Assembly (NCBI RefSeq): GCF_009646115.1
Contig: NZ_CP045720.1
Coordinates: forward strand, 3,534,001-3,598,000
Origin: Pantoea eucalypti
GTDB taxonomy: Bacteria > Pseudomonadota > Gammaproteobacteria > Enterobacterales > Enterobacteriaceae
DNA length: 64,000 nt
Direction: 5' to 3'
In this document: one piece after another, positions 3,514 to 31,232 of the stretch
How the letters are laid out: each line of letters begins with the position of its first letter
How positions within the stretch are numbered: the first letter of the stretch is position 1
Translations under genes and position numbers: made by a program
The notes under the pieces: generated by a model
What the model was told of the DNA's origin: nothing
Seen by the model: the letters and a program-made list of their open reading frames with translations, nothing else
Database searches by the model: none

Positions 3514-4680
3514 TCACTGTACGACCACTTTATCCTGAGTTGCCAGATCGACCAACAACGCAATGCCTAAATAGTTGCTCCAGTTAAAGCCGTTCTGCAG
3601 CACCACAATCGCATTGCCATGACGTTTATCGTAGCCGATAAAACTGGCATAGCCGCCAATATAGCCCACCTGATAAGTGATCTGCTGTCCTTCAATGGTG
3701 TCGGTGACCCAAGCGATATTCTGCGCCTGCGCGCCCTGCTGATACCACGGCCGGTTCACCGCCGCAAAAGCCCGACCCTGCGCCGTATCATCGGTGGCAT
3801 TGAGGTGCGCGCGCAGATAGGCACTCAGATCGCGCGCATTGCTATAAAGACTGGCCGCGGCCACCATGTTGCCGTGAAAATGCCAGTCAGGCGTCAGCGT
3901 GCCACGGCGGATAAATTTTGGCTGATCGCCTGCATGGCCCAGCGCACGCAGCGGATAGCCTGGCAGCGTTTCCGGGACAAAACTGCTTTGACTCATCTTT
4001 AGCGGGGTAAAGATAAGCTGTGACGCCAGCGTCTGAATCTCCTGATGAAAACGGGTGCGTATGATAAAACCGAGCAGCGCATAGCCGAGATTGGAGTAGT
4101 GTGGCATGCGTACCGCAGGTGCAGAGAAGTCCGCCAGATAAGTCAGCAGTCTGTCACTGTCGAGATTGCCATAGAAATTCTCGCCAGTGCCCAGATAACC
4201 CACGAACTGCAACAGCATCGGCAGGTCCATATCCTGACGCGGCAGGCCTGAGGTATGCGTCACCAGTTGCAGCAGGGTGATGCGCTGCGCATCAGCACTA
4301 AGATGAACCTCTTTCGGTAGCAGGTCGGCCAGCGTGTCACTCCAGCGCAGCTTACCCTGTTCAACCAGCTGGATAATCACTTCAGCCGTCACGCCTTTAC
4401 TCAGCGAGCCCAGCGCAAACAGGGTATCGGGCGTGATCGGATAGCGATGCGCCCCATCAGTAACGCCGAAAGGATAATAGCGGGTCGGGCCGCCGCGATG
4501 AATCACCGCAATGCTGATGCCGGGAACCTGCTTCTGCTGCATGTAGTGCTGCACGATGTCATCGACATTTTCGTGAAAGGTGGCGTGCGTCAGATAAACG
4601 CGGTCGCCTAACGGCGCGGAGGTTTGCGACAGGGTTCCGCAGCCCGCCAGCAGGAAGATCATGACTGGCATAAATCGCAT
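3514..4680 (-). CDS. Class C beta-lactamase-related serine hydrolase, probable lipoprotein
   Basis: Serine hydrolase of the AmpC/EstB/low-molecular-weight PBP fold, 388 residues from the chosen start. The catalytic SxxK is visible in LGSLSKG and the YxN tyrosine in HYSNLGYALLG. The chosen ATG gives MRFMPVMIFLLAGC, a short signal with a lipobox (LAGC), implying an outer-membrane or periplasmic lipoprotein. An upstream in-frame ATG at 4767 would add 29 residues that bury the signal, and neither start has a strong Shine-Dalgarno. It is a lone gene, so it is not AmpC next to ampR; a peptidase or esterase role is as likely as antibiotic hydrolysis. Confidence 0.82.
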   Translation of the reverse strand: MRFMPVMIFLLAGCGTLSQTSAPLGDRVYLTHATFHENVDDIVQHYMQQKQVPGISIAVIHRGGPTRYYPFGVTDGAHRYPITPDTLFALGSLSKGVTAEVIIQLVEQGKLRWSDTLADLLPKEVHLSADAQRITLLQLVTHTSGLPRQDMDLPMLLQFVGYLGTGENFYGNLDSDRLLTYLADFSAPAVRMPHYSNLGYALLGFIIRTRFHQEIQTLASQLIFTPLKMSQSSFVPETLPGYPLRALGHAGDQPKFIRRGTLTPDWHFHGNMVAAASLYSNARDLSAYLRAHLNATDDTAQGRAFAAVNRPWYQQGAQAQNIAWVTDTIEGQQITYQVGYIGGYASFIGYDKRHGNAIVVLQNGFNWSNYLGIALLVDLATQDKVVVQ

Positions 4681-5008
4681 TATGACTCTGCCGATCCAAT
4701 GGCTGCTATCGGCCAGCCGTGCGAGGTATACAGCTAAAGCCTGGCTGACGGAAAATCCATTTTTCATTTAATAATCATCAGGTTAATTTTATTTACTACG
4801 CAGCAGCCTCTCTGTAGCGCAAAAATGTACCACAAAGTGCAGCAGGCTATCGCCTGCATAATGGGGTCAAAATGGTGTTAAACGCGGTTTAACCTCATGC
4901 CAGCGCCGGACAGGGTTAGCTGTGTTGAACGCCCACAAGGGTGTACACTGCTGCGGTTTTAAGGCTCAACGCCGCGCTGAAATTTTCACATGCCCGGGAG
5001 GCAACCGC

Positions 5009-5677
5009 ATGAAAGAAGGCCCACTGTCCGAGAAAGAGCTGCAATGGCTGGAAGATATGCTGGAAAAATATGGCAGCGAAGCGTCGATTATTGATGTCTC
5101 CGAGCTGGATGGTCTGCTGACTGCCGTTCTCTCCGGCCCCACTACCGTTGAACCCAGCCAGTGGCTGGTGGCCCTTTGGGGCGGCGAGAAGCAGATTCCA
5201 AAATGGAGCAACGAGCGTGAAATGACGCGCTTTATGTCGCTGTGCTTCCAGCATATGAATGATGTGGCTGATCGTTTATCTGAGTTCCCGGAGCAGTTTG
5301 AACCGCTGTTTGGCATCCGCGAGATGGAAGGTCTGGAATTTACCGTGGTGGAAGAGTGGTGCTTCGGTTACATGCGCGGTGTCGCGCTGACCGACTGGTC
5401 TGCCCTGCCTGCGGATCTGCAGCCTGCGCTGGACGCTATCGCTCTGCACGGCGTGGAAGAGAATCTCGAAAAGATCGACGCCATGACGCCAGACGAAATG
5501 GAAGCCAGCATTGAGGCGATCCGCCCTGCCGCCCTGGCGCTGCACGATCACTGGATCTCTCAGCCGGAAGCGATTCCCGTGCCTCAGAAACCGGTCGCGG
5601 CAGAGAAACTGCCTGGCCGCAACGATCCCTGCCCGTGCGGCAGCGGCAAAAAATATAAGCAGTGCTGTCTCCATTGA
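5009..5677 (+). CDS. yecA: YecA, UPF0149/SEC-C domain protein
   Basis: 222 residues, matching E. coli YecA in length and closely in sequence (for example [48 protein letters not shown]). The N-terminal part is the helical YgfB/YecA domain. The C-terminus [18 protein letters not shown] is a SEC-C zinc-binding motif like that of SecA, which in SecA contacts SecB and the ribosome. I chose the ATG at 5009 because GGGAGG lies 8 nt upstream; the open frame extends upstream to 4922 without such a site. E. coli YecA has been linked to SecA/ribosome binding; the role here is taken from that family. Confidence 0.92.
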
Positions 5678-5858
5678 TTGACTGCTTAGCCTCACGATCT
5701 GCCGGGCGGCTATTTGGCCCGGCATGCTTCTCTCACGATCCACGACAGTTTGACCTGCATCACTCTACCCATCCCCTTACCTGAATAGACTGCTCACGAC
5801 TTGAACAGCTTCACGCTTATCGCTAAGGTAAGCGCGATTTTACCCGTCAGGAATAACC

Positions 5859-6452
5859 ATGATCACCATCACGCTGATTGACGATCACCTCATCGTCCGC
5901 TCCGGCTTTGCCCAGCTGCTGAGCCTGGAATCTGATTTCCAGGTGGTGGCGGAATTTGGTTCTGGCCGTGAGGCACTGGCAGGTTTACCGGGCTGTGGCG
6001 TTCAGGTCTGTATTTGCGATATTTCGATGCCAGATCTCTCCGGGCTGGCGCTGCTGAGCAAGCTGCCGGCGGGCCTGGCCACCATCATGCTTTCAGTCCA
6101 TGACAGTCCGGCTCTGGTGGAACAGGCACTTAATGCCGGTGCGCGCGGATTTCTCTCTAAACGCTGTCGTCCCGATGAGCTGATCGCGGCGGTGCGCACG
6201 GTCTCCACAGGCGGCTGTTATCTGACGCCAGAGATTGCGATCAAGCTGGCCGCTGGTCGGCAGGACCCGCTTACCCGACGTGAACGTCAGGTGGCAGAAA
6301 AACTCTCACAGGGCATGGCGGTTAAGGAAATTGCCGTTGAGCTGGCGCTGTCACCGAAAACCGTACATGTTCATCGCGCGAATCTGATGGAGAAGCTCGG
6401 CGTCAGCAATGATGTGGAGCTGGCGCGCCGCATGTTTGATGGCTGGCAATGA
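5859..6452 (+). CDS. uhpA: Response regulator UhpA
   Basis: 197 residues with a receiver domain (DDH at residues 8-10, phospho-acceptor Asp in [11 protein letters not shown] near 55, Thr/Ser and Lys switch residues) and a C-terminal LuxR-type helix-turn-helix ([22 protein letters not shown] ... [18 protein letters not shown]). In the Uhp system UhpA-P activates uhpT when external glucose-6-phosphate is sensed. AGGAA precedes the ATG. Its stop codon overlaps the uhpB start (ATGA), so the two are co-translated. Confidence 0.95.
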
Positions 6453-7948
6453 GTCCTTTTGTTTCGCGGCTGATCTCCGTTGTCGCCAGCTTTTTTATCT
6501 TTTCGGCGGCCTGGTTCTGCCTGTGGAGTATCAGCCTGCATCTGGTGGAACGCCCGGAACTGGCGGTGCTGCTATTCCCGTTTGGCCTGCGTCTGGGGCT
6601 GATGCTGCAATGTCCACGCGCTTACTGGCCGGTGCTGCTGGCAGCTGAGTGGATCATGCTGGTCTGGCTGGCGAAGGTGGTCGCGCTGGCGCATCTGCCG
6701 CTGTTAATGGCGGGCAGTGTACTGACGCTGCTGCCAGTGGCGCTGATCTCCCATTACCGCCATCAGCGTGACTGGCGCACGCTGCTGAGCCAGGGTGCGG
6801 CACTGATCGCCGCGGCGCTGCTGCAATCTCTGGCGTGGGCGGGACAGCAGGAGATGCTGAACGCCCTGCTACTGACGCTCACCGGTGGTCTGACGCTGGC
6901 CCCGACCTGCCTGGTCATCTGGCACTATCTCACCAGCACCCGCTGGCAGCCGCTGGGGCCGTCGCTGGTCTCACACCCGGTCAACTGGCGCGCCCGGCAT
7001 CTTATCTGGTATCTGCTGCTGTTTGTCATCAGTCTCTGGTTGCAGCTTGGCCTGCCCGCTGAACTGTCGCGCTTTACGCCATTCTGTCTGGCGCTGCCGA
7101 TTATTGCTCTGGCCTGGCACTACGGCTGGCAGGGTGCGCTGATCGCGACGCTGATGAATGCAATCGCGCTGATCGCCAGCCAGACCTGGCACGATCATCC
7201 GGTCGATCTTCTCCTCTCACTACTGGCCCAAAGTCTGACCGGACTGCTGCTGGGTGCGGGTATCCAGCGGCTGCGCGAGTTGAATCAGTCGCTGCAGAGC
7301 GAGCTGGCGCGCAACCGGCTGCTGGCGGAACGGCTGGTCGAAACAGAAGAGAACGTACGCCAGGAGGTGGCGCGCGAACTGCACGATGATATCGGTCAGA
7401 CGATTACGGCAATCCGCACCCAGGCGGGCATTGTGCAGCGCCTTGCGCCGGATAATGGCCGGGTGATCCAGAGCGGCGTCCATATTGAGCAGCTCTCACT
7501 CGGTGTCTACGATTCAGTGCGGCGACTGCTGGGACGTCTGCGACCCCGCCAGTTAGATGACCTGTCACTTGAACAGGCAGTCCGCTCCCTGATGCGTGAG
7601 ATGGAGCTGGAGGATTGCGGCATCGTCAGTCACCTTGAGTGGCGTATTGATGAGACGCTGCTGAGCGAAGCGCAGCGCGTCACGCTGTTTCGCGTCTGTC
7701 AGGAGGGGCTGAACAACATTGTAAAACACGCCAGCGCCAGCGCCGTGATGCTGAAAGGCTGGCAACAGGATTGTCGCGTTTTGCTGGTGATTGAAGATGA
7801 TGGCTGCGGTCTGCCGCCAGGTTCCGGTCAGCAAAGCTTTGGTCTGGTCGGGATGCGCGAACGCGTGAGTGCGCTGGGCGGCTCCCTGACGATCTCCTGC
7901 ACCCATGGAACCCGCGTCAGCGTGCATCTGCCGCTGCGTTCGGCCTGA
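6449..7948 (+). CDS. uhpB: Membrane sensor histidine kinase UhpB
   Basis: 499 residues, the length of E. coli UhpB. The first 280 residues form about eight hydrophobic helices (MASE1-like sensor). The kinase part begins with the HisKA_3 box [22 protein letters not shown], whose His near residue 313 is the expected phosphorylation site. The ATPase domain shows the N box [18 protein letters not shown] and the G boxes [11 protein letters not shown] and [16 protein letters not shown]. It works with UhpC, which detects glucose-6-phosphate, and phosphorylates UhpA. The start overlaps uhpA by 4 nt. Confidence 0.95.
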
Positions 7949-7957
7949 GGAATCACC

Positions 7958-9286
7958 GTGTTTAACTTCCTGAAAACGCCCGCTAACGCCGCCCCGCTGC
8001 AGGACAAAGGTGAGATTGATAGCCGCTATCGCTACTGGCGACGGCACATCATGTCAACCATCTGGATCGGCTATGCCCTGTTCTACTTTACCCGCAAAAG
8101 CTTCAACGCGGCAGCACCTGAAGTGATCGCCAGCGGTGTGATGATGCGAACCGATATCGGCCTGCTGGCGACGCTGTTTTACATCACTTATGGCCTGTCG
8201 AAGTTCTTCTCCGGTATCGTCAGTGACCGCTCCAATGCCCGCTATTTTATGGGACTGGGGCTGATCGCTACCGGCGTGGTCAATATCCTGTTTGGCTTCT
8301 CCACCTCGCTATGGGCTTTTGCGCTGCTGTGGACCATCAACGCCTTTTTCCAGGGCTGGGGCGCGCCGGTCTGCGCGCGCCTGCTGACCAACTGGTATTC
8401 GCGTAACGAGCGCGGCGGCTGGTGGGCATTATGGAACACCGCGCACAACGTTGGCGGTGCGGTTATCCCGATCGTTATCGGCGCGGTGGCACTGCACTAT
8501 GGCTGGCGAACCGGGATGATGATTGCGGGCAGTTTAGCGATACTCGCCGGACTGTTTCTCTGCTGGCGTCTGCGCGACCGGCCTCAGACTGTCGGCCTGC
8601 CCACTGTAGGCGACTGGCGACAGGATGAGATGGAGATGGCGCAGCAGCAGGAAGGCGCAGGTCTGAGTCGCAAAGCGATCCTGACCCGCTACGTGCTTTT
8701 CAATCCCTATATCTGGCTGCTGTCATTGTGTTACGTGCTGGTCTATGTGGTTCGCGCCGCGCTCAATGACTGGGGGAATCTTTACATCTCCGACACGCTG
8801 GGGGTGGATCTGGTGACGGCCAACTCGGTAGTCACCCTGTTTGAGCTGGGCGGTGTGATAGGCGCGCTGGTCGCGGGATGGGGCTCGGACAAGCTGTTTA
8901 ATGGCAACCGTGGCCCCATGAACCTGATTTTTGCAGCCGGGATTTTGCTTTCCGTCGGCTCACTGTGGCTGATGCCCTTTACCAGTTACGTGATGCAGGC
9001 CGCCTGCTTTTTTACTACCGGTTTCTTCGTCTTCGGCCCGCAGATGCTGATCGGCATGGCGGCTGCCGAGTGTTCGCATAAAGAGGCGGCGGGCGCGGCA
9101 ACCGGCTTCGTCGGTCTTTTCGCCTATCTCGGCGCGTCACTCTCCGGCTGGCCGCTGGCGTGGGTAATCGACGTCTGGCACTGGAGCGGCTTCTTTGCGG
9201 TGATTGCCACGGCGGCGGGGATATCCGCCCTGCTGCTGTTGCCGTTTTTAAATGCTCAGGCGCCGAGATCCCTGCCTGAAGCGTGA
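7958..9286 (+). CDS. uhpC: UhpC, hexose-phosphate sensor of the MFS family
   Basis: 442 residues, a 12-helix organophosphate:phosphate antiporter fold related to UhpT. Typical signatures are YALFYFTRKSFNAAAPEV, GLSKFFSGIVSDRSNARYFMG and ALWNTAHNVGGAVIP. In E. coli UhpC acts as the receptor for external glucose-6-phosphate and stimulates UhpB, with little transport of its own. It starts at a GTG with GAGG upstream, 9 nt after uhpB, and ends in front of a strong hairpin. Confidence 0.94.
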   Translation: MFNFLKTPANAAPLQDKGEIDSRYRYWRRHIMSTIWIGYALFYFTRKSFNAAAPEVIASGVMMRTDIGLLATLFYITYGLSKFFSGIVSDRSNARYFMGLGLIATGVVNILFGFSTSLWAFALLWTINAFFQGWGAPVCARLLTNWYSRNERGGWWALWNTAHNVGGAVIPIVIGAVALHYGWRTGMMIAGSLAILAGLFLCWRLRDRPQTVGLPTVGDWRQDEMEMAQQQEGAGLSRKAILTRYVLFNPYIWLLSLCYVLVYVVRAALNDWGNLYISDTLGVDLVTANSVVTLFELGGVIGALVAGWGSDKLFNGNRGPMNLIFAAGILLSVGSLWLMPFTSYVMQAACFFTTGFFVFGPQMLIGMAAAECSHKEAAGAATGFVGLFAYLGASLSGWPLAWVIDVWHWSGFFAVIATAAGISALLLLPFLNAQAPRSLPEA

Positions 9287-21024: not shown

Positions 21025-21798
21025 ATGCCATCAAAAATAAACTGGCTATTGCAAAACACCTCTCCAGGAAGCCTGGTTTTGCAATCCTGGCTAACCCGGA
21101 ACAACATATCGCCTTCTCTGGCCTATAAATACGCGCAAAGTGGCTGGCTGAAAAAACTGCGGGCTGGCGTTTATGCGCGCGCAGGACGAGAACCGGACTG
21201 GAGTGATGCGCTATGGAGTCTTCAAAGCCAGCTTGACGCGCCAGTGCATCTGGCCGGACTGAGCAGCCTCTCCTGGCAGGGCCGTTCCCATTACCTGCAA
21301 CTTAAGCAGAGTCAATGCTGGCTTAGCGTTGAAAACAAAACAATATTGCCTAAATGGTTTAAAGAATTTCCCGGCGTTGAGTGGCTGATAGTATCAGCTC
21401 TGAAGCTTCCTCAACTGGATGAGAAGTTCCGAACCGAGCTCGACGTTAAAGGAAAAAAATTAACTGCCAGCGTACCAGAGCTGGCAGCCTATGAGCTGTT
21501 AAGCGCAGTCCCTCAGGTAATCTCATTCGAGCACGCTGCCGAGCTTTTTCAGGGACTGGTCAATCTCAATCCACGTAAAGTCGAGAAGCTACTTACGCTC
21601 AGTCAGTCCGTACAAACAAAGCGATTGTATCTGTTTTTCGCCAGTTTTTATGATCATGCCTGGTTCAGGCGCGTAGATACCAGCAAAATCGACCTGGGAT
21701 CGGGTAACCGACAAGTTGTTGTCAATGGCAAGCTGGACACGCAGTACATGATTACTGTGCCCGAAAATTTTAACAGGAAGGGAATAAGCCATGGATAA
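21025..21798 (+). CDS. AbiEi-type antitoxin (type IV toxin-antitoxin)
   Basis: 257 residues. The N-terminal winged helix-turn-helix (SPSLAYKYAQSGWLKKLRAGVYARAG, about residues 31-56) and the following AbiEi domain with LAGLSSLSWQGRSHYLQL are typical of AbiEi antitoxins. AbiEi represses its operon and counteracts the AbiEii nucleotidyltransferase. The stop codon overlaps the start of abiEii by 8 nt, the normal AbiE arrangement. The partner toxin is truncated, so this antitoxin is probably an orphan. Confidence 0.85.
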   Translation: MPSKINWLLQNTSPGSLVLQSWLTRNNISPSLAYKYAQSGWLKKLRAGVYARAGREPDWSDALWSLQSQLDAPVHLAGLSSLSWQGRSHYLQLKQSQCWLSVENKTILPKWFKEFPGVEWLIVSALKLPQLDEKFRTELDVKGKKLTASVPELAAYELLSAVPQVISFEHAAELFQGLVNLNPRKVEKLLTLSQSVQTKRLYLFFASFYDHAWFRRVDTSKIDLGSGNRQVVVNGKLDTQYMITVPENFNRKGISHG

Positions 21799-22003
21799 AA
21801 CCTCCCCCTACTACCGCCAGGTCTCCCTGCTGGTTAGAGCATTACCCTATGTCGCTAACGAGACCTGTTTTGCGCTGAAAGGGGGAACCGCAATCAACTT
21901 ATTCATTCGCGATTTTCCCCGATTGTCCGTTGATATCGATCTGGCTTATATCCCACTGGAAAGCAGAGAGGTCGCCTTACGCGCCCGTACTGAGACTGTT
22001 TGA
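21791..22003 (+). pseudogene. Truncated AbiEii/AbiGii nucleotidyltransferase toxin
   Basis: Only the N-terminal 62 or so residues are authentic: KGGTAINLF (the GG[ST] nucleotide-binding motif) and [18 protein letters not shown] (the DxD metal pair). AbiEii proteins are normally close to 300 residues. From about 21978 the sequence becomes the reverse complement of the 5' end of hsdM, and the frame stops at 22003. The catalytic C-terminal motifs are gone, so the toxin should be inactive. Confidence 0.85.
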
Positions 22004-22073
22004 AATCACCGCGCAGTAGGTCAGCGACAGACCAGATAAAGGCAGCCGTTTGCGAAAAATTAGTGTTAGTCAT
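21978..22073 (-). pseudogene. Orphan 5' fragment of a second hsdM gene
   Basis: Read on the minus strand, the ATG at 22073 begins [19 protein letters not shown] and continues to QYGRV, 32 residues. It is the same as the start of the intact hsdM at 27011 except for residues 2-4. At the DNA level the 96 bp differ at roughly one base in eight, so it comes from a related but distinct hsdM allele rather than a recent copy. It abuts the cut end of abiEii. Confidence 0.85.
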
Positions 22074-22344: not shown

Positions 22345-23358
22345 CTAAGTTTTGGCGGGAATGTAGGTTTTCTTGAGAGGCACCAGCAATTTAGTGTCAA
22401 TATCAACTTGCTCATAGTTTTCGATAAGCGCTCTAACAAGGTCATCCAGCGTCCAAAGCGTCAGCGGTATCGTTGAACGATCGGCTTCATATCGAGCGTC
22501 CTTAGTGAAACCACCTGTACTGACATAAAGCCCACGGTCGTCTTTATGACGGCCGCCAATAAAGCTACGGATTTGCTGACTTCCCATCTGTTCTCTGCGG
22601 TGTTTTACCTCAACGATAATACGCGGATTTTCAAAGCCAAATCCATCAGGAGAAGCGATGATGTCTTTACCCCGATCGGCTCCAGCAGGAGACACCTGAG
22701 TTTTATATCCCATGCTGCGTAAGACGCCGGCAACAAGGTCCTGCATCTCATCCCAGTCAAGTGAGTTGATGCGATCTTTAATACCCTCAAATGCAAGCAT
22801 TTCCATATCACGAAGCGGATCTGAAACAACTTCATCCTCATCCATTCGAACTGGATTATGAGTAATAACGTCTACTGTGGGTTTCTTATCCTGTAAAAGC
22901 TCTACTAACGCATACTCTGGAAGCTGGAAAACTGTCAGCGTAGAGCCTAGTGTATTTTTGGTCGAAACAGACAAACGATCGCGGTCGATTTCTTCAGTAT
23001 TCCATTTAACCTGCCGAGCAATCCCCATCCCCTCTTCTACCCATTCAGGATGATATTGGAAGTCGGAAGTAACTTTGCCTAACAGATAAGTACGATTGGC
23101 TGGCGAATAGGTAACAACCCAATCACCCTTTTTGATTTCATTCACAAAACGCCAGACCTGTGATGCACCAGAACGGGCACTTCCCAGCTTCGTTAAGGGA
23201 TCTACTTTCTGGTATAGGGCGAGTAACTGGGATCGGGACAGACCAGGTTTGACCAAAGGAGCCAGTTGCGACCAACCAATACCTATGATTTGTTTATCGC
23301 GAAAATCGTCATAAAGTTTGCCGCCATCGCCACGAATCATCCACATTCTGTTACCCAT
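22345..23358 (-). CDS. Mrr-like restriction endonuclease
   Basis: 337 residues. The N-terminal half (MWMIRGDGGKLYDDF, IIGIGW, EIKKGDWVVTYSPANRTYLLG, LSVSTKNTLGSTLTVF) is the EVE/PUA-like sensing region found in many Mrr homologues. The C-terminal half is the Mrr catalytic domain: DWDEMQDLVAGVLRSMGYKT, GADRGKDIIAS and IIVEVKHRREQMGSQQIRSFIGG, giving the PD-(D/E)xK residues Asp and ExK, then GLYVSTGGFTKDA. Mrr enzymes cut modified DNA (type IV restriction). It lies 114 bp downstream of the methylase-HEPN gene on the same strand, as mrr lies beside hsd genes in E. coli. Confidence 0.88.
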   Translation of the reverse strand: MGNRMWMIRGDGGKLYDDFRDKQIIGIGWSQLAPLVKPGLSRSQLLALYQKVDPLTKLGSARSGASQVWRFVNEIKKGDWVVTYSPANRTYLLGKVTSDFQYHPEWVEEGMGIARQVKWNTEEIDRDRLSVSTKNTLGSTLTVFQLPEYALVELLQDKKPTVDVITHNPVRMDEDEVVSDPLRDMEMLAFEGIKDRINSLDWDEMQDLVAGVLRSMGYKTQVSPAGADRGKDIIASPDGFGFENPRIIVEVKHRREQMGSQQIRSFIGGRHKDDRGLYVSTGGFTKDARYEADRSTIPLTLWTLDDLVRALIENYEQVDIDTKLLVPLKKTYIPAKT

Positions 23359-23472: not shown

Positions 23473-26400
23473 TCATCCCAGGCTATCTGTAATAACATTT
23501 TGTTCGAGAAATGTGTAAGTTGTCACGTTAGGATAAGGGCAAACAAAACGAATATTATCGTCAAAAATGTCACTATAGAAGTAAAAACCCATTATATCAC
23601 TTTCGAGTAAAATCTCTCTCATGACCATTAAAGGAAAAATTTTTGTTACGATTATATTTTCATTAGCCGCTAAATCACCATGTGCAAGATATAACTCCCC
23701 AGATATCATAGGATCAGAAGTTTTGAATTGCGTAGTTTTACTCGGATTAATTCCCAACCCTTTAAGAACCTCAACCTCATTCACAAACCCACTTCCATCG
23801 AACTTTGCTTGAATTGGTTTTATAAGAGTGGTCATTTCAAAAAACGCTCTACATTCTAGCTGCATACGATTAACTAAACGCTCAACAACCTCTTTCGTTG
23901 AATTTACAGCTATAGCAGACGGTAACCCTCTATGAGAAATGTCATTTCTTAGTTCAGTGGCTTCGCGGAGAATGTTTACGATCTCGTCACTACATATCAA
24001 ACTGACATTACCATCACTTAGATCAAATGTATTTTTATAATCGTTAATTCGATTATGACCAAATGCCATTGTAATATTCGGCAATTTTTTTGCTTTTTGC
24101 AAAAGTATTCTTTTGACGGTTTCCTGTGCCCAAAAATGAATGAAACAAAATACAACCCAAGATATTCAAAAAATTTAATATAAGCCTCACATCGTTCCCT
24201 ATTATTAAATTTTGACTCTGCTAACTCCCACAGAATGGCTAAAGGGGTTGGCAACATTGCTGAGAATTCTTGTTCATATCTATGCGCAACATTTTGATAC
24301 GGTAGTAATTGTTCTTGTGCTGAGTTGAAATCTGAAAAAACAGACTTTTTAAGTAAAGAGACTCGAGCTAGCACAGCCTCACACTCATTCCAAAATTCTA
24401 TTAACCCTGATTGATTACCTACAGGTGGAAGTGAGAACCTCGCATTTAGCCATGCTGGCATTGATATATTTCTTGAGAATGTATATGTGGACTTGAAATT
24501 ATTCCTAAGCCAGTCCACACCTTCTTCATGTTGTAAAAATATATTATAAAAATCAGTAAGAAGAGTTTCACTCTGGAAATCAAAGCGAGCTGGATTGAGT
24601 GCTATTCTCTTTTCACTTAAGGAAGAAAACTCATTTATTCTTCCAGTTGCATGATCCAATACATAAAGCCCAGAATTATTTATTTTCACTATTTCTTTTA
24701 GACGAACCGATTTTCCTTGAAGAAGCTTATCTCTATAGTGCTTTCGTTGGAAATAGGAATCAAAGTTGATCTCATACCCAACCACCCCGACATTATTATC
24801 TTTATTATCTTTCTTTTCAGCATTAATCCAAGAATCAGCCACCAATGGCAGCACTTCTGTTTTGAAGTAGTTTTCAGTCAGTTTGCTGGTGGATACTGAA
24901 GGATTCAGCGGAACGTTTTCGTTATCGCGCAGCTCACTGTCCTGCTCAAACTCAACAACCTTGCCTTTGTACTCAAACGTCCCGTACAGTGGCTGAGCGG
25001 CTTCATTCAGCACCTGCTTCACCACCGGTTCGGCATCCGGATTTTTAGTGGTGATTGCACCGATAAACTGCTTATGCTCTTTCGCATCCAGCTTCACGCC
25101 AGCGGTTTTAATGGCATCTTCCAGGGTCAGCTTGAACTGGTTGAAGTCATTGCTCACGCGCGTTTTACCGCCCGCCTGCAACCCCAGCGTCGTCTGAATC
25201 TGCTGTGTCTTTTCCATTAACTCACGCTGTGAAAGCCAGAGTTTGCTGTTAAGCAGGTCTTTAACCTGTTTCTCTTTCAGCTCAGCAAATTCAGCTTTGA
25301 TGACGGCGCGCGCTTCGGATTCCAGTTCGGAGAAATACCCGTAGGAACTCTCCTGCCACTGGGAGGCGAATTCTTCATACAGGCGTTCCATCGGTGCGTT
25401 AAACGGCTTCGGTGCAAAGCGCAAAGAAGCAATCGCTTCATCTGACACCTGTGCAGATAACCGAAGCGGACGTTCAATGGTCAGGCGACGATAGCCAAAG
25501 TCAGTGGTGTTCAAGCTTTTGCTGGCGAAGGTCTTCGGCGCTTCGGTTTTGGCAGTGACGGGCTGACGGCCAAGGCTGGATTTTTGCTCGGCAACATTTT
25601 CCAAACCAAGCTCTTCCAGAGTTGAAACATCCACCACCTTAAATTTACCGAAGGTCTGGGTGACCAGCTTGATATCGTCTTCGCCCATCAGGTTGCGCTT
25701 GGAACCCAGCGATTTACGCATCTTGCCGCACAGATTAGTGCCATCAATCAGCTGCACTTTGCCTTTACGCTCAGGCGCTTTCTTGTTGGAGAGGATCCAG
25801 ACGTAAGTGGCAATGCCGGTGTTGTAGAACATGTCCGTTGGCAGCGCGACGATGCCTTCCAGCAAGTCGGCTTCCAGAATGTAGCGTCGGATTTCACTCT
25901 CGCCGCTGCCCGCACCACCGGTAAACAGTGGGGAAGCGTTGAGGATAATCCCGATTCGCCCGCCGTTGCTCACGGTGCCATCCACATTGTGGTTGTCACG
26001 CATTTTGCTGATCAGGTGCATCAGGAATAACAGCGAGCCGTCGGAAACACGTGGCAGGCCCGGGCCAAAGCGGCCATTAAAGCCTTTCTGCATGTGTTCG
26101 TCGTTAATCTCGCCCTCAATCTTTTTCCAGTCCACGCCAAGCGGCGGGTTGCAAAGCATGTAGTCGAACTGATCATGTGGCAGCTGGTCGTTAGAGAGGG
26201 TGTTGCCCAGCTTAATACGGCTGACGTCCCGGCCTTTGATCAGCATATCGGCTTTACAGATAGCGTAGGATTCCGGGTTCAGCTCCTGACCAAAGGCACG
26301 CATGACCGCGTTAGGGTTCAGCTTGTGAACATATTCCATCCCCGCAGAAAGGAAGCCGCCTGTTCCGGCCGTCGGATCATAAATGGTGCGGATGATACCG

Positions 26401-27011
26401 TCCTGCGTCAGCGCATCATCATCTTCCATAAACACCAGCGAGGTGGTCAGGCGCACGATATCGCGAGAGGTGAAGTGCTCACCGGCGGTCTCATTGGAGC
26501 TTTCCGCAAAACGACGGATAAGCTCTTCAAACACCAGCCCCATTTCATGGTTGGGAATCGCTTTCGGACTAAGGTCCGTCTTGGCGAATTTCTTCACAAC
26601 CTTAAACAGCAGGTTGGCATCTTCAAGCAGGCCGATAAACTCACTGAATTTGAAGTGTTCGAAGATCTCACGCGCGTCTGATGAAAACGCCTGTACGTAG
26701 CTTTCCAAATTGGTTTTGATGTCGTGCTGATCCATCTTGCCCAGATCAATCTTCGAGGTGTTGAAGAAGGAAAATGTGCTGGTGCGCAGCAGAAACTTCT
26801 CTTTCGCATCTTCCGGCAGCGGACTGGTTTTTAATTCATCATATTTCGCCACAACCGCGTCTTTGGTCTCTGCTAATACACACTCAAGACGGCGCAACAG
26901 CGTAAAGGGCAGGATCACACGCCCATACTGCGACTGTTTAAAATCACCGCGCAGCAGATCAGCAACCGACCAGATAAACGCAGCCGTTTGTGAAAAATTT
27001 TTGTCAGACAT
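23473..27011 (-). pseudogene. hsdM: HsdM-type methylase fused to a TRD-like segment and a HEPN-like domain, split by one frameshift
   Basis: The frame from ATG 27011 runs 997 codons to 24018. Inserting one T in the T5 run (A5 on the plus strand, 24132-24136) joins it to the frame ending at 23473, giving 1179 residues. Residues 1 to about 750 are a type I N6-adenine methylase: [23 protein letters not shown] motif [10 protein letters not shown] near 217 and catalytic NPPL near 290. After [11 protein letters not shown] the usual HsdM tail is replaced by a region starting [11 protein letters not shown] and ending [11 protein letters not shown], resembling an HsdS target-recognition half. The last part holds ELRNDISHRG, a HEPN RX4H motif (codons at 23932-23949). 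The 3' third is visibly AT-richer. No hsdS or hsdR is nearby. It may be a broken gene, a sequencing slip or a programmed frameshift. The methylase part alone could still be made. Confidence 0.75.
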
Positions 27012-27584: not shown

Positions 27585-27669
27585 TGGTGCCGAAGGCCGG
27601 AATCGAACCGGCACGCCTCGCGGCGGTTGATTTTGAATCAACTGCGTCTACCGATTTCGCCACTTCGGC
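27585..27669 (-). tRNA. leuX: tRNA-Leu (CAA), leuX
   Basis: An 85-nt class II tRNA on the minus strand. It begins GCCGAAGTGGCG and ends CCTTCGGCACCA, with the acceptor stem GCCGAAG / CTTCGGC and encoded CCA. The anticodon loop TTCAAAA gives anticodon CAA, reading UUG. The T arm GCCGGTTCGATTCCGGC is intact and the variable arm is long, as for leucine tRNAs. leuX is a classic island integration site in Enterobacterales; the island here lies on its 3' side. Confidence 0.97.
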
Positions 27670-29851: not shown

Positions 29852-30218
29852 TTAAATGACCCGACCTGTTCGGATAGCTCCTGATTATATCGAAGAAGAT
29901 ATGATGCCGTTATCCGTTTTTACTGCACTGCCAGCTCATCTTTCAGTGCACTACGATCTGTCTGACGAGAGACAGGGCCGAGCGCCAGCCCCACAACTGA
30001 GTTGCCTGAATAAATCCGGCTATGGCCCAACGTTTTAACCTGAGCATCCTCCCTCAACTTATCTCTTACGCTGATGTTGTCTTGATTGTCTTACAGCGCC
30101 TGTTCGCCTTTAAAAACTCCCAAATCCCTCCCCACCTTTACGGTTTACATTTACCTGCATTTGTTATGTGATCCTGTTACATGAATTTCTCGAGCTGTCT
30201 CGCAAAACAGGATCCTGC
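29852..30218. other. Non-coding region upstream of the HNH gene
   Basis: A plus-strand frame of 60 codons at 29856-30038 has no ribosome-binding site or family features. The segment near 29880 (TATATCGAAGAAGATATGA) is echoed weakly at 32121-32140, part of a set of decayed duplications in this area. Confidence 0.35.
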
Positions 30219-31232
30219 ATGCGCTTTTACCAGGCCGATCCCCGCCTCGAAAACTACTGGCGCGGCGTTATTCTTTTTGGCAAAAACGTCGCGTCCTATA
30301 AATTTGCTCTTGCCCATGCGCTATACGACCTGAAGCAGCCGGACAACGATTTGATTACGCTGGAAGCGCTGGCCGTGCCTTTTGTCCGGCATTTGTGCGC
30401 TCACCTGCGTCATGCGCCAAAGCAGATTACCAGCAAAAGCAGCGAGTTTCTGGAGGCGTGCAGGCAATTCAACGCAGGCGAAATCAACGAAGAACAGTTA
30501 ATCGCTATTACCGTTAAGCGCGGTTTTGCTAACGTCATCGATGCTTTTCATAATGTGAATCATGCCGAGATCGACAAACGCTTTTTCCTGGATGAACGGC
30601 GAAGTCATAAAGGCATACGACTTACGGATAATTTTTATCAGCTGACGGAAAACGAACAGTTCGCCAGTCTGGAAGCGGAAACGGATGCAAGATGGCGGCT
30701 GGTTGAAGAAGCCTGGGCGATGAATGTTTCACGCAACCTGATTGCGGTTGATTATGACGATAATGACAAAATGCTTTTCAGCCGCCAGAGTGGTCGCCGC
30801 GTCGATATTACCAGCTGTCGCAGCAGCCTGAACGGCTACCAGAAAGGACTGTGTTTTTACTGCTTCCGCGCCATTGGCGTGACGGGCGGCGAAGAGAACC
30901 TGGCGGATGTCGATCACTTTCTGCCGCTGATACTCAGCGAGCAAATCGGCAACCTCAACGGCGTCTGGAATCTGGTGCTGGCCTGCCAGACCTGTAATCG
31001 TGGCGCTCAGGGTAAGTTTGCGCGCATCCCGTCAATAGCGCTGCTGCAGCGACTGCATGATCGAAACGAATACTTTATTAACAGCCATCTGCCATTGCGG
31101 GAGACGTTACTCCGCCAGACCGGCGCAACGCCGATACTACGGCACAGCTTCCTGCAAAACAGTTGGGATACGGCAAAATTTTCCCTGCTCCACGAGTGGC
31201 AGCCAGCGGCACAGGGAGGCAGCCAGTTTTGA
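30219..31232 (+). CDS. HNH endonuclease
   Basis: About 337 residues. The C-terminal HNH fold is clear: GLCFYCFRAI (first Cys pair), DVDHFLPL (catalytic Asp-His), WNLVLACQTCNRG (Asn and second Cys pair). The N-terminal 220 residues are helical and of unknown function. I prefer the ATG at 30219 because AGGA precedes it; an in-frame GTG at 30168 adds 17 residues but has no ribosome-binding site. The stop overlaps the TTG start of the methyltransferase (TTGA). This suggests a two-gene nuclease/methyltransferase unit, perhaps for defence; that is inference. Confidence 0.82.
   Translation: MRFYQADPRLENYWRGVILFGKNVASYKFALAHALYDLKQPDNDLITLEALAVPFVRHLCAHLRHAPKQITSKSSEFLEACRQFNAGEINEEQLIAITVKRGFANVIDAFHNVNHAEIDKRFFLDERRSHKGIRLTDNFYQLTENEQFASLEAETDARWRLVEEAWAMNVSRNLIAVDYDDNDKMLFSRQSGRRVDITSCRSSLNGYQKGLCFYCFRAIGVTGGEENLADVDHFLPLILSEQIGNLNGVWNLVLACQTCNRGAQGKFARIPSIALLQRLHDRNEYFINSHLPLRETLLRQTGATPILRHSFLQNSWDTAKFSLLHEWQPAAQGGSQF

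Follow-up and report, generated by a model that had tools for sequence, protein, structure and literature searches.

The window analysed here, a 64,000-nucleotide stretch of a Pantoea eucalypti genome, carries a broken, frameshifted member of a small natural protein family in which a type I methylase (HsdM) head is followed by half of an HsdS-like specificity subunit, a HEPN domain and an OB-like end. We put at about even odds (a probability of roughly 0.5) that the members read in one frame act as guards that sense DNA or anti-restriction proteins, with the HEPN RNase as effector. The chimera is a variant of the already known R-M-coupled HEPN defence, probably an alarm that shuts down virus-attacked cells, with a predicted RNA-cutting domain. 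As a compact case open to experiment, it illustrates how a suicide RNase may stand guard over an R-M enzyme and how a modification enzyme may have become a sensor. The coordinates of the features are collected in Table 1.

Table 1. Features of the chimera locus and its surroundings in the window.
Feature	Position	Strand	Remark
Whole chimera locus	27011-23473	(-)	HsdM head, then TRD plus helix, HEPN (RNDISH), OB-like end
HsdM head, residues 1-754	24750..27011	(-)	HsdM_N + N6_Mtase; motif IV CNPPL
Predicted TRD-like alpha/beta domain (half HsdS)	24423..24722	(-)	mapped from L005 model residues 25-124
Predicted long helix after the TRD, resembling the HsdS conserved helix	24336..24422	(-)	model residues 125-153
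Predicted HEPN domain, spanning the frameshift	23833..24245	(-)	
ExxxK motif, second conserved HEPN feature	24174..24188	(-)	kept in 35/35 aligned relatives
A-rich run where the frames part	24080..24095	(-)	frameshift; contains the gene's only homopolymer of at least 7
RX4H motif RNDISH	23932..23949	(-)	R, N and H in 35/35 aligned relatives
Predicted C-terminal beta domain, first part OB-like	23500..23829	(-)	
Mrr-type restriction endonuclease gene	22345..23358	(-)	Mrr_cat E 1.5e-24; PADLOC PDC-S02 E 1.4e-82
Canonical hsdM remnant, first 32 codons	21978..22073	(-)	beyond mrr; cut at junction with truncated abiEii
tRNA-Leu(CAA)	27585..27669	(-)	just upstream of the chimera gene; likely island insertion site

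A preliminary description of this DNA had read the locus as a methylase joined to a TRD-like segment and a HEPN domain with an RX4H motif, and each of these parts was recovered by Pfam, by structure modelling or by residue conservation. The upstream 997-aa ORF contains both domains of a type I HsdM above cut-off (HsdM_N, E 9e-27; N6_Mtase, E 7e-52) and head residues 2-757 match the PADLOC MTase_I model PDLC03029 (E 2e-260), while the HsdM equivalog NCBIfam TIGR00497 scores 72.7 bits, far under its curated cut-off of 242.75 bits. In the chimera, other sequence takes the place of the final 32 residues of HsdM. In the model of the Pantoea sp. A4 protein (L005), the TRD part matches BsaXI S, the HsdS 3okg, PacII S, EcoKI S and 7eew (VIA-align; modest Z), and alignments to HsdS-type chains extend to residues 150-156. 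Of these, 7eew (with Ocr) is a Vibrio vulnificus methyltransferase, probably with M and one TRD in a single chain; no HEPN match was seen in it, and it matches the chimera head weakly by sequence (E 0.003). An HsdS-type specificity domain consists of a TRD fold with a long helix behind it, and the modelled segment has both. PF01420 (Methylase_S) was absent from the window's two chimera pieces at E up to 1 and from the 25 of 28 Pfam families listed for 37 rows, and a profile comparison of the middle segment with 12 HsdS sequences gave a weak signal (P 0.002; L013 left out, its hsdS being split). The middle segment is thus HsdS-like by its predicted structure and not by Pfam.

The HEPN assignment rests on three features of the superfamily, the two sequence motifs among them as given in section 6 of PMC3710099. 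First, the model contains a domain with the HEPN fold, an all-helical unit of about 100-120 residues in the superfamily. Second, the RX4-6H motif with a polar residue after R appears as RN....H in 35/35 relatives (L005 plus 34 proteins) and, apart from these rows, in the window, whose 209-aa ORF carries ELRNDISHRG; since none of R, N and H varies among the 35 aligned relatives, the motif in the window is more than a chance match. Third, the upstream acidic residue, often within Ex3[KR], is present as E203 and K207 of the tail in the same 35 rows. The helical part containing RX4H finds its best structural match in the known HEPN protein 1wwp (modest Z; predicted model), which agrees with the proposed HEPN fold. 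The preliminary description would have been refuted by an RX4H not placed on a HEPN bundle, and the match speaks against this in part, at the level of the fold and not of the two residues. PF18735 (HEPN_RiboL-PSP) stays below its curated cut-off of 28.4 bits (16.6 bits in L005; 15 in the window piece, E 0.023), with a best E of 1.2e-4 among the 37 rows. Searching solved structures by sequence, with the tail as query, gave no meaningful match, Foldseek alone gave no E under 0.001, and no other HEPN structure was recognised by name among the structural matches listed, a result that excludes nothing.

Homologues of full length and free of the frameshift were found. A protein search returned relatives of 1174-1198 aa at 96-99% query coverage, together with many 786-aa HsdMs (best 120 of 7999 matches). 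Searching with residues 770-1179 of one relative (P0001) gave 34 proteins; of these, 33 (1039-1198 aa) carry the two HsdM domains, while a 648-aa partial (P0121) was excluded from trees and head counts; tail identity among them goes down to 35%. The chimera of Pantoea sp. A4 likewise reads in one frame. The single chain envisaged in the preliminary description therefore exists in these 33 relatives and in Pantoea sp. A4, but not in the window copy, which is frameshifted. The family is rare: among the genomes sampled, the HEPN piece was found in 1/394 of the order, and the tail in 2/61 of the genus, 3/392 of the family and 1/369 of the class (the window's own genome being included in each count). 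The tail had no match in phage or plasmid collections and no confirmed relative in one viral-contig scan. It is not a common free-standing protein either: when the C-terminal 292 residues of L005 served as query and lengths were limited to about 0.55-1.75 times 292 aa, four short proteins came up.

We compared what is conserved in the two halves of the chain. The catalytic motif IV of the methylase is NPP(Y/F/W), as given in PMC3874165. In the 35 chimera heads (window, L005 and 33 proteins) it reads SNPPF in 25, CNPPF in 1, CNPPL in 3 (window, P0001, P0002), SHPPF in 5 and SAPPF in 1, so that NPPF is retained in 26/35, and 9/35, the window's CNPPL among them, depart from NPP-aromatic. In contrast, all 111 close canonical HsdM rows are SNPPF (0/111 departures; 770-800 aa, from the best 120 matches, later searches and nine loci, 108 of them distinct), these rows being the nearest matches and hence less diverged. 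Also, 31 more distant HsdM-like proteins have NPPF or NPPY (0/31 departures; two further loci, L028 and L030, were dropped for wrong ORFs). The departures require at least six changes on the head tree, built with the motif columns kept in, and at least seven on the tail tree. Where estimable, dN/dS between L005 and either L025 or the window was 0.08-0.17 for each domain, with dS near saturation for L025 and no estimate for the TRD part of the L005-L025 pair. The TRD-like part also diversifies far less than HsdS: at 90-99.9% head identity it averages 92.7% (12 chimera pairs, mostly within a few clades) against 38.5% for whole canonical HsdS at the same HsdM identity (35 pairs), and at 70-80% head identity 56.9% (109 pairs) against 36.1% (29 pairs); 12 canonical loci were used, and 508/528 chimera pairs lie inside the identity bands given. 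With RX4H kept in 35/35 relatives and motif IV altered in 9/35 heads, selection seems to keep the predicted RNase more than methylation. Together, the motif counts, dN/dS and TRD identities suggest that methylation has been preserved less well than the RNase motif and the slowly evolving recognition part.

Heads and tails have separate histories. On a tree of 19 of the 35 chimera heads and 22 of the 111 canonical HsdMs, which also served for topology tests of clades chosen after earlier trees, the chimera label needs 4 changes, 3 of them forced by well-supported branches, compared with 13.8 in shuffles; as judged from these sequences, chimera heads are clustered yet not one group. The P0006 head falls among Edwardsiella canonical HsdMs, and its grouping with the head of P0010 (Paramixta) is rejected (p-AU 1.7e-6) although the two tails are sisters with support 100. 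A single clade for the 12 Enterobacterales chimera heads is rejected as well (p-AU 9e-5). The head of P0007 (Yersinia kristensenii) is 92.5% identical to a Y. enterocolitica canonical HsdM versus 91.1% to its closest chimera among the matches listed, and P0001 and P0003 share 97.6% of their tails and 91.5% of their heads. This conflict implies either that the tail rides on different hsdM heads or that other hsdM genes overwrite the heads, for which a resident hsdM may be the donor. Recent gene conversion between the chimera and the neighbouring hsdM was considered for L027 and rejected, as no near-identical blocks occur in the first 0.9 kb.

The genes around the chimera were compared across loci. 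As noted in the preliminary description, no hsdS (PF01420) or hsdR (PF04313) match is present in the window, which therefore lacks the two genes that would complete a type I R-M system; matches to these families in the genome fall either on contig C3 or at 633-639 kb of C1, a contig of which the window covers 3534-3598 kb, and no other close HsdM was found. The same description had overlooked a second, canonical hsdM, of which a remnant persists beyond mrr along with its upstream stretch. The gene order in Pantoea sp. A4 is chimera-mrr-hsdM-hsdS-hsdR (hsdS 450 aa, hsdR 1082 aa), where hsdM begins at a contig end and the rest of it, with hsdS and hsdR, lies on a second contig; the join between the two contigs is deduced from complementary pieces. 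Given this complete set beside the chimera, the missing hsdS and hsdR of the window look like a local loss. Canonical loci examined have the order hsdM-hsdS-hsdR, with an hsdM of 758-802 aa; these members of the 786-aa HsdM group, covered by PADLOC PDLC03029, share the head with the chimera and differ in having hsdS and hsdR downstream. Varied extras then follow: an AAA ATPase with McrC (L030, L031), DUF4433 with macro (L028), or mrr (L013). Mrr, which had been named as the neighbour, adjoins the chimera in the window and in L005/L027 (2/4 loci) but is absent within 18-19 kb in L025 and L026, and no hsd gene accompanies the E. coli relative of mrr (L032) in the stretch examined. These loci point to Mrr as an island companion and not a fixed partner. 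The low GC at 22-26 kb (43-45%, against 46-61% in the other 2-kb steps of the window) and the tRNA-Leu(CAA) just upstream suggest an island. This tRNA gene is also found in L013 and L026, and not in L005, L025 or L032; in L026 (genome G696, 3891-8338), a chimera split by transposase-like ORFs adjoins the tRNA gene and an integrase, at the same type of insertion site as in the window.

These neighbourhoods, and the head tree, bear on a rather unlikely alternative in which the chimera is an accessory module of the adjoining type I R-M system: it would replace one HsdM in M2S(R2) and be silenced as PrrC is by EcoprrI, the HEPN domain acting only upon inhibition of the enzyme. The order in Pantoea sp. 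A4 is what this reading expects; P0001 and P0075 probably share a contig, as do P0004 and P0060, and chimera heads group with particular canonical lineages, as seen in the rejected Enterobacterales clade. However, the type I system next to the one-frame chimera of genome G521 (HsdR, HsdS and GmrSD-type genes) is unrelated, and that genome has no close canonical HsdM. The head exchange may also be plain homologous recombination, and the chimera lacks the native end of HsdM.

As for the window copy itself, the two overlapping minus-strand ORFs are in different frames, 24018-27011 and 23473-24102, and probably no full-length protein is made from them. The 33 one-frame relatives rule out a gene-calling artefact. 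A frame split that is programmed (slippage), or due to an assembly error, such that the full protein is made after all, is unlikely: it would fit the location of the split at the gene's only long homopolymer, and the short HEPN ORFs P0137 and P0139 start near the same point, but this position lies within a single frame in L005 and L025, and the assembly, of 4 contigs, is rated 100% complete. P0137 and P0139 are separate ORFs that may be further broken copies.

Could the family consist of solitary methyltransferases, each with its own half-S, in which the HEPN-like domain is merely structural or RNA-binding? The NPPF of 26/35 heads would suit such an enzyme, and PMC6158711 describes an engineered HsdM-half-HsdS fusion that dimerises, methylates, and restricts once HsdR is added; this fusion has the M-half-S order of the chimera but is man-made and lacks HEPN. 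We consider this quite improbable, because motif IV is off in 9/35 heads, requiring at least six changes on the head tree, and RX4H and ExxxK never vary among the aligned relatives. Least probable is a dying, functionless fusion hitch-hiking in a defence island, for although the window copy is frameshifted, L026 is split and the chimera is rare (4 genomes in all among those sampled, two in the window's genus), there are 33 one-frame relatives with tail identity down to 35%, low dN/dS and invariant active-site residues.

The guard reading that we prefer would work as follows. Two chains would pair via their half-S helices into an M2S-like clamp, much like the engineered fusion of PMC6158711, and a resident canonical HsdM may be a further partner of the chimera. 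The clamp would read DNA or meet a DNA-mimicking anti-restriction protein, and the trigger would be an altered clamp state, whether caused by unmodified invader DNA, by inhibitor binding or by loss of the partner R-M enzyme. This would free or pair two HEPN domains in the complex, which would cut host or phage RNA, and the resulting cell arrest would stop the infection; the OB-like end may hold RNA. Sequences or predicted models are the source for the single-chain layout, the folds, the conserved RX4H, the motif IV changes, the slow TRD, the split histories of head and tail, and the complete type I system next to the chimera in one species; from these we infer the dimer, the metal-independent RNase activity expected of a HEPN domain, the trigger, the RNA target and the abortive outcome. 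More tentatively, and with odds somewhat against it, the family may form a distinct class of abortive infection, where M plus half-S has turned sensor, with catalysis no longer needed and lost several times, a fixed recognition site, and a head renewed through recombination with the methylases of resident R-M systems; the HEPN RNase in that chain would fire upon disturbance of the R-M complex or of its DNA state.

One of the closest known parallels is PrrC, an anticodon nuclease that is held by the type IC R-M enzyme EcoprrI and released when phage T4 inhibits it, according to PMC3710099 and PMC3874165. There too a HEPN RNase is coupled to HsdM, HsdS and HsdR, with a proposed guard logic; but PrrC is a separate ABC-ATPase-HEPN protein, whereas in the chimera the HEPN lies inside the methylase chain. 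The ABC-ATPase plus HEPN combination that defines PrrC/RloC was not found in the chimera: neither the two window pieces nor the 25 of 28 families listed for the 37 rows include an ABC domain. The nuclease domain of a Type IIG/IIB R-M enzyme is equally missing from the families listed for the window pieces and from the same 25 of 28. In the BREX-related HEPN-fused DUF499 ATPase systems, as outlined in PMC12839542, a HEPN RNase is also covalently tied to an R-M-like system, but through the ATPase and not the methylase. AveC4I of Aeromonas veronii was considered as a candidate for the same fusion and set aside, PMC10569733 presenting its hsdM and hsdS as separate. The 2013 HEPN survey (PMC3710099), in its account of R-M-linked HEPN domains, names nucleases, helicases and ATPases as their fusion partners, states that methylases are not among them, and rests an argument on this; a table in the survey lists HEPN-M as occasionally fused to methylase domains. 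The chimera, with at least 33 one-frame members, is an exception to the survey's statement. In the open-licence PMC literature, no title or abstract start among the matches listed describes an HsdM-halfS-HEPN protein.

Other observations concern the flanks. The window's mrr is 96% identical to that of L005; its dS between the two is 0.15, whereas that of the adjoining HsdM part of the chimera is 0.55. A transfer or recombination of mrr later than any of the chimera may account for the lower value. Downstream, abiEi (21025-21798) is complete, and at 21791-22073 a truncated abiEii (a 70-aa ORF, named by its position after abiEi) runs into the hsdM remnant; the boundary between the two is a deletion or recombination junction. 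At 30168-31232, an HNH-like protein with weak PADLOC PtuB/PDC-M01B matches and no Pfam match resembles by eye the product of L013 6394-7407, beside the Trabulsiella hsdM island. Near the one-frame chimera of L005, a 507-aa PIN-domain protein (PF13638, E 1e-6) is encoded at 5414-6937.
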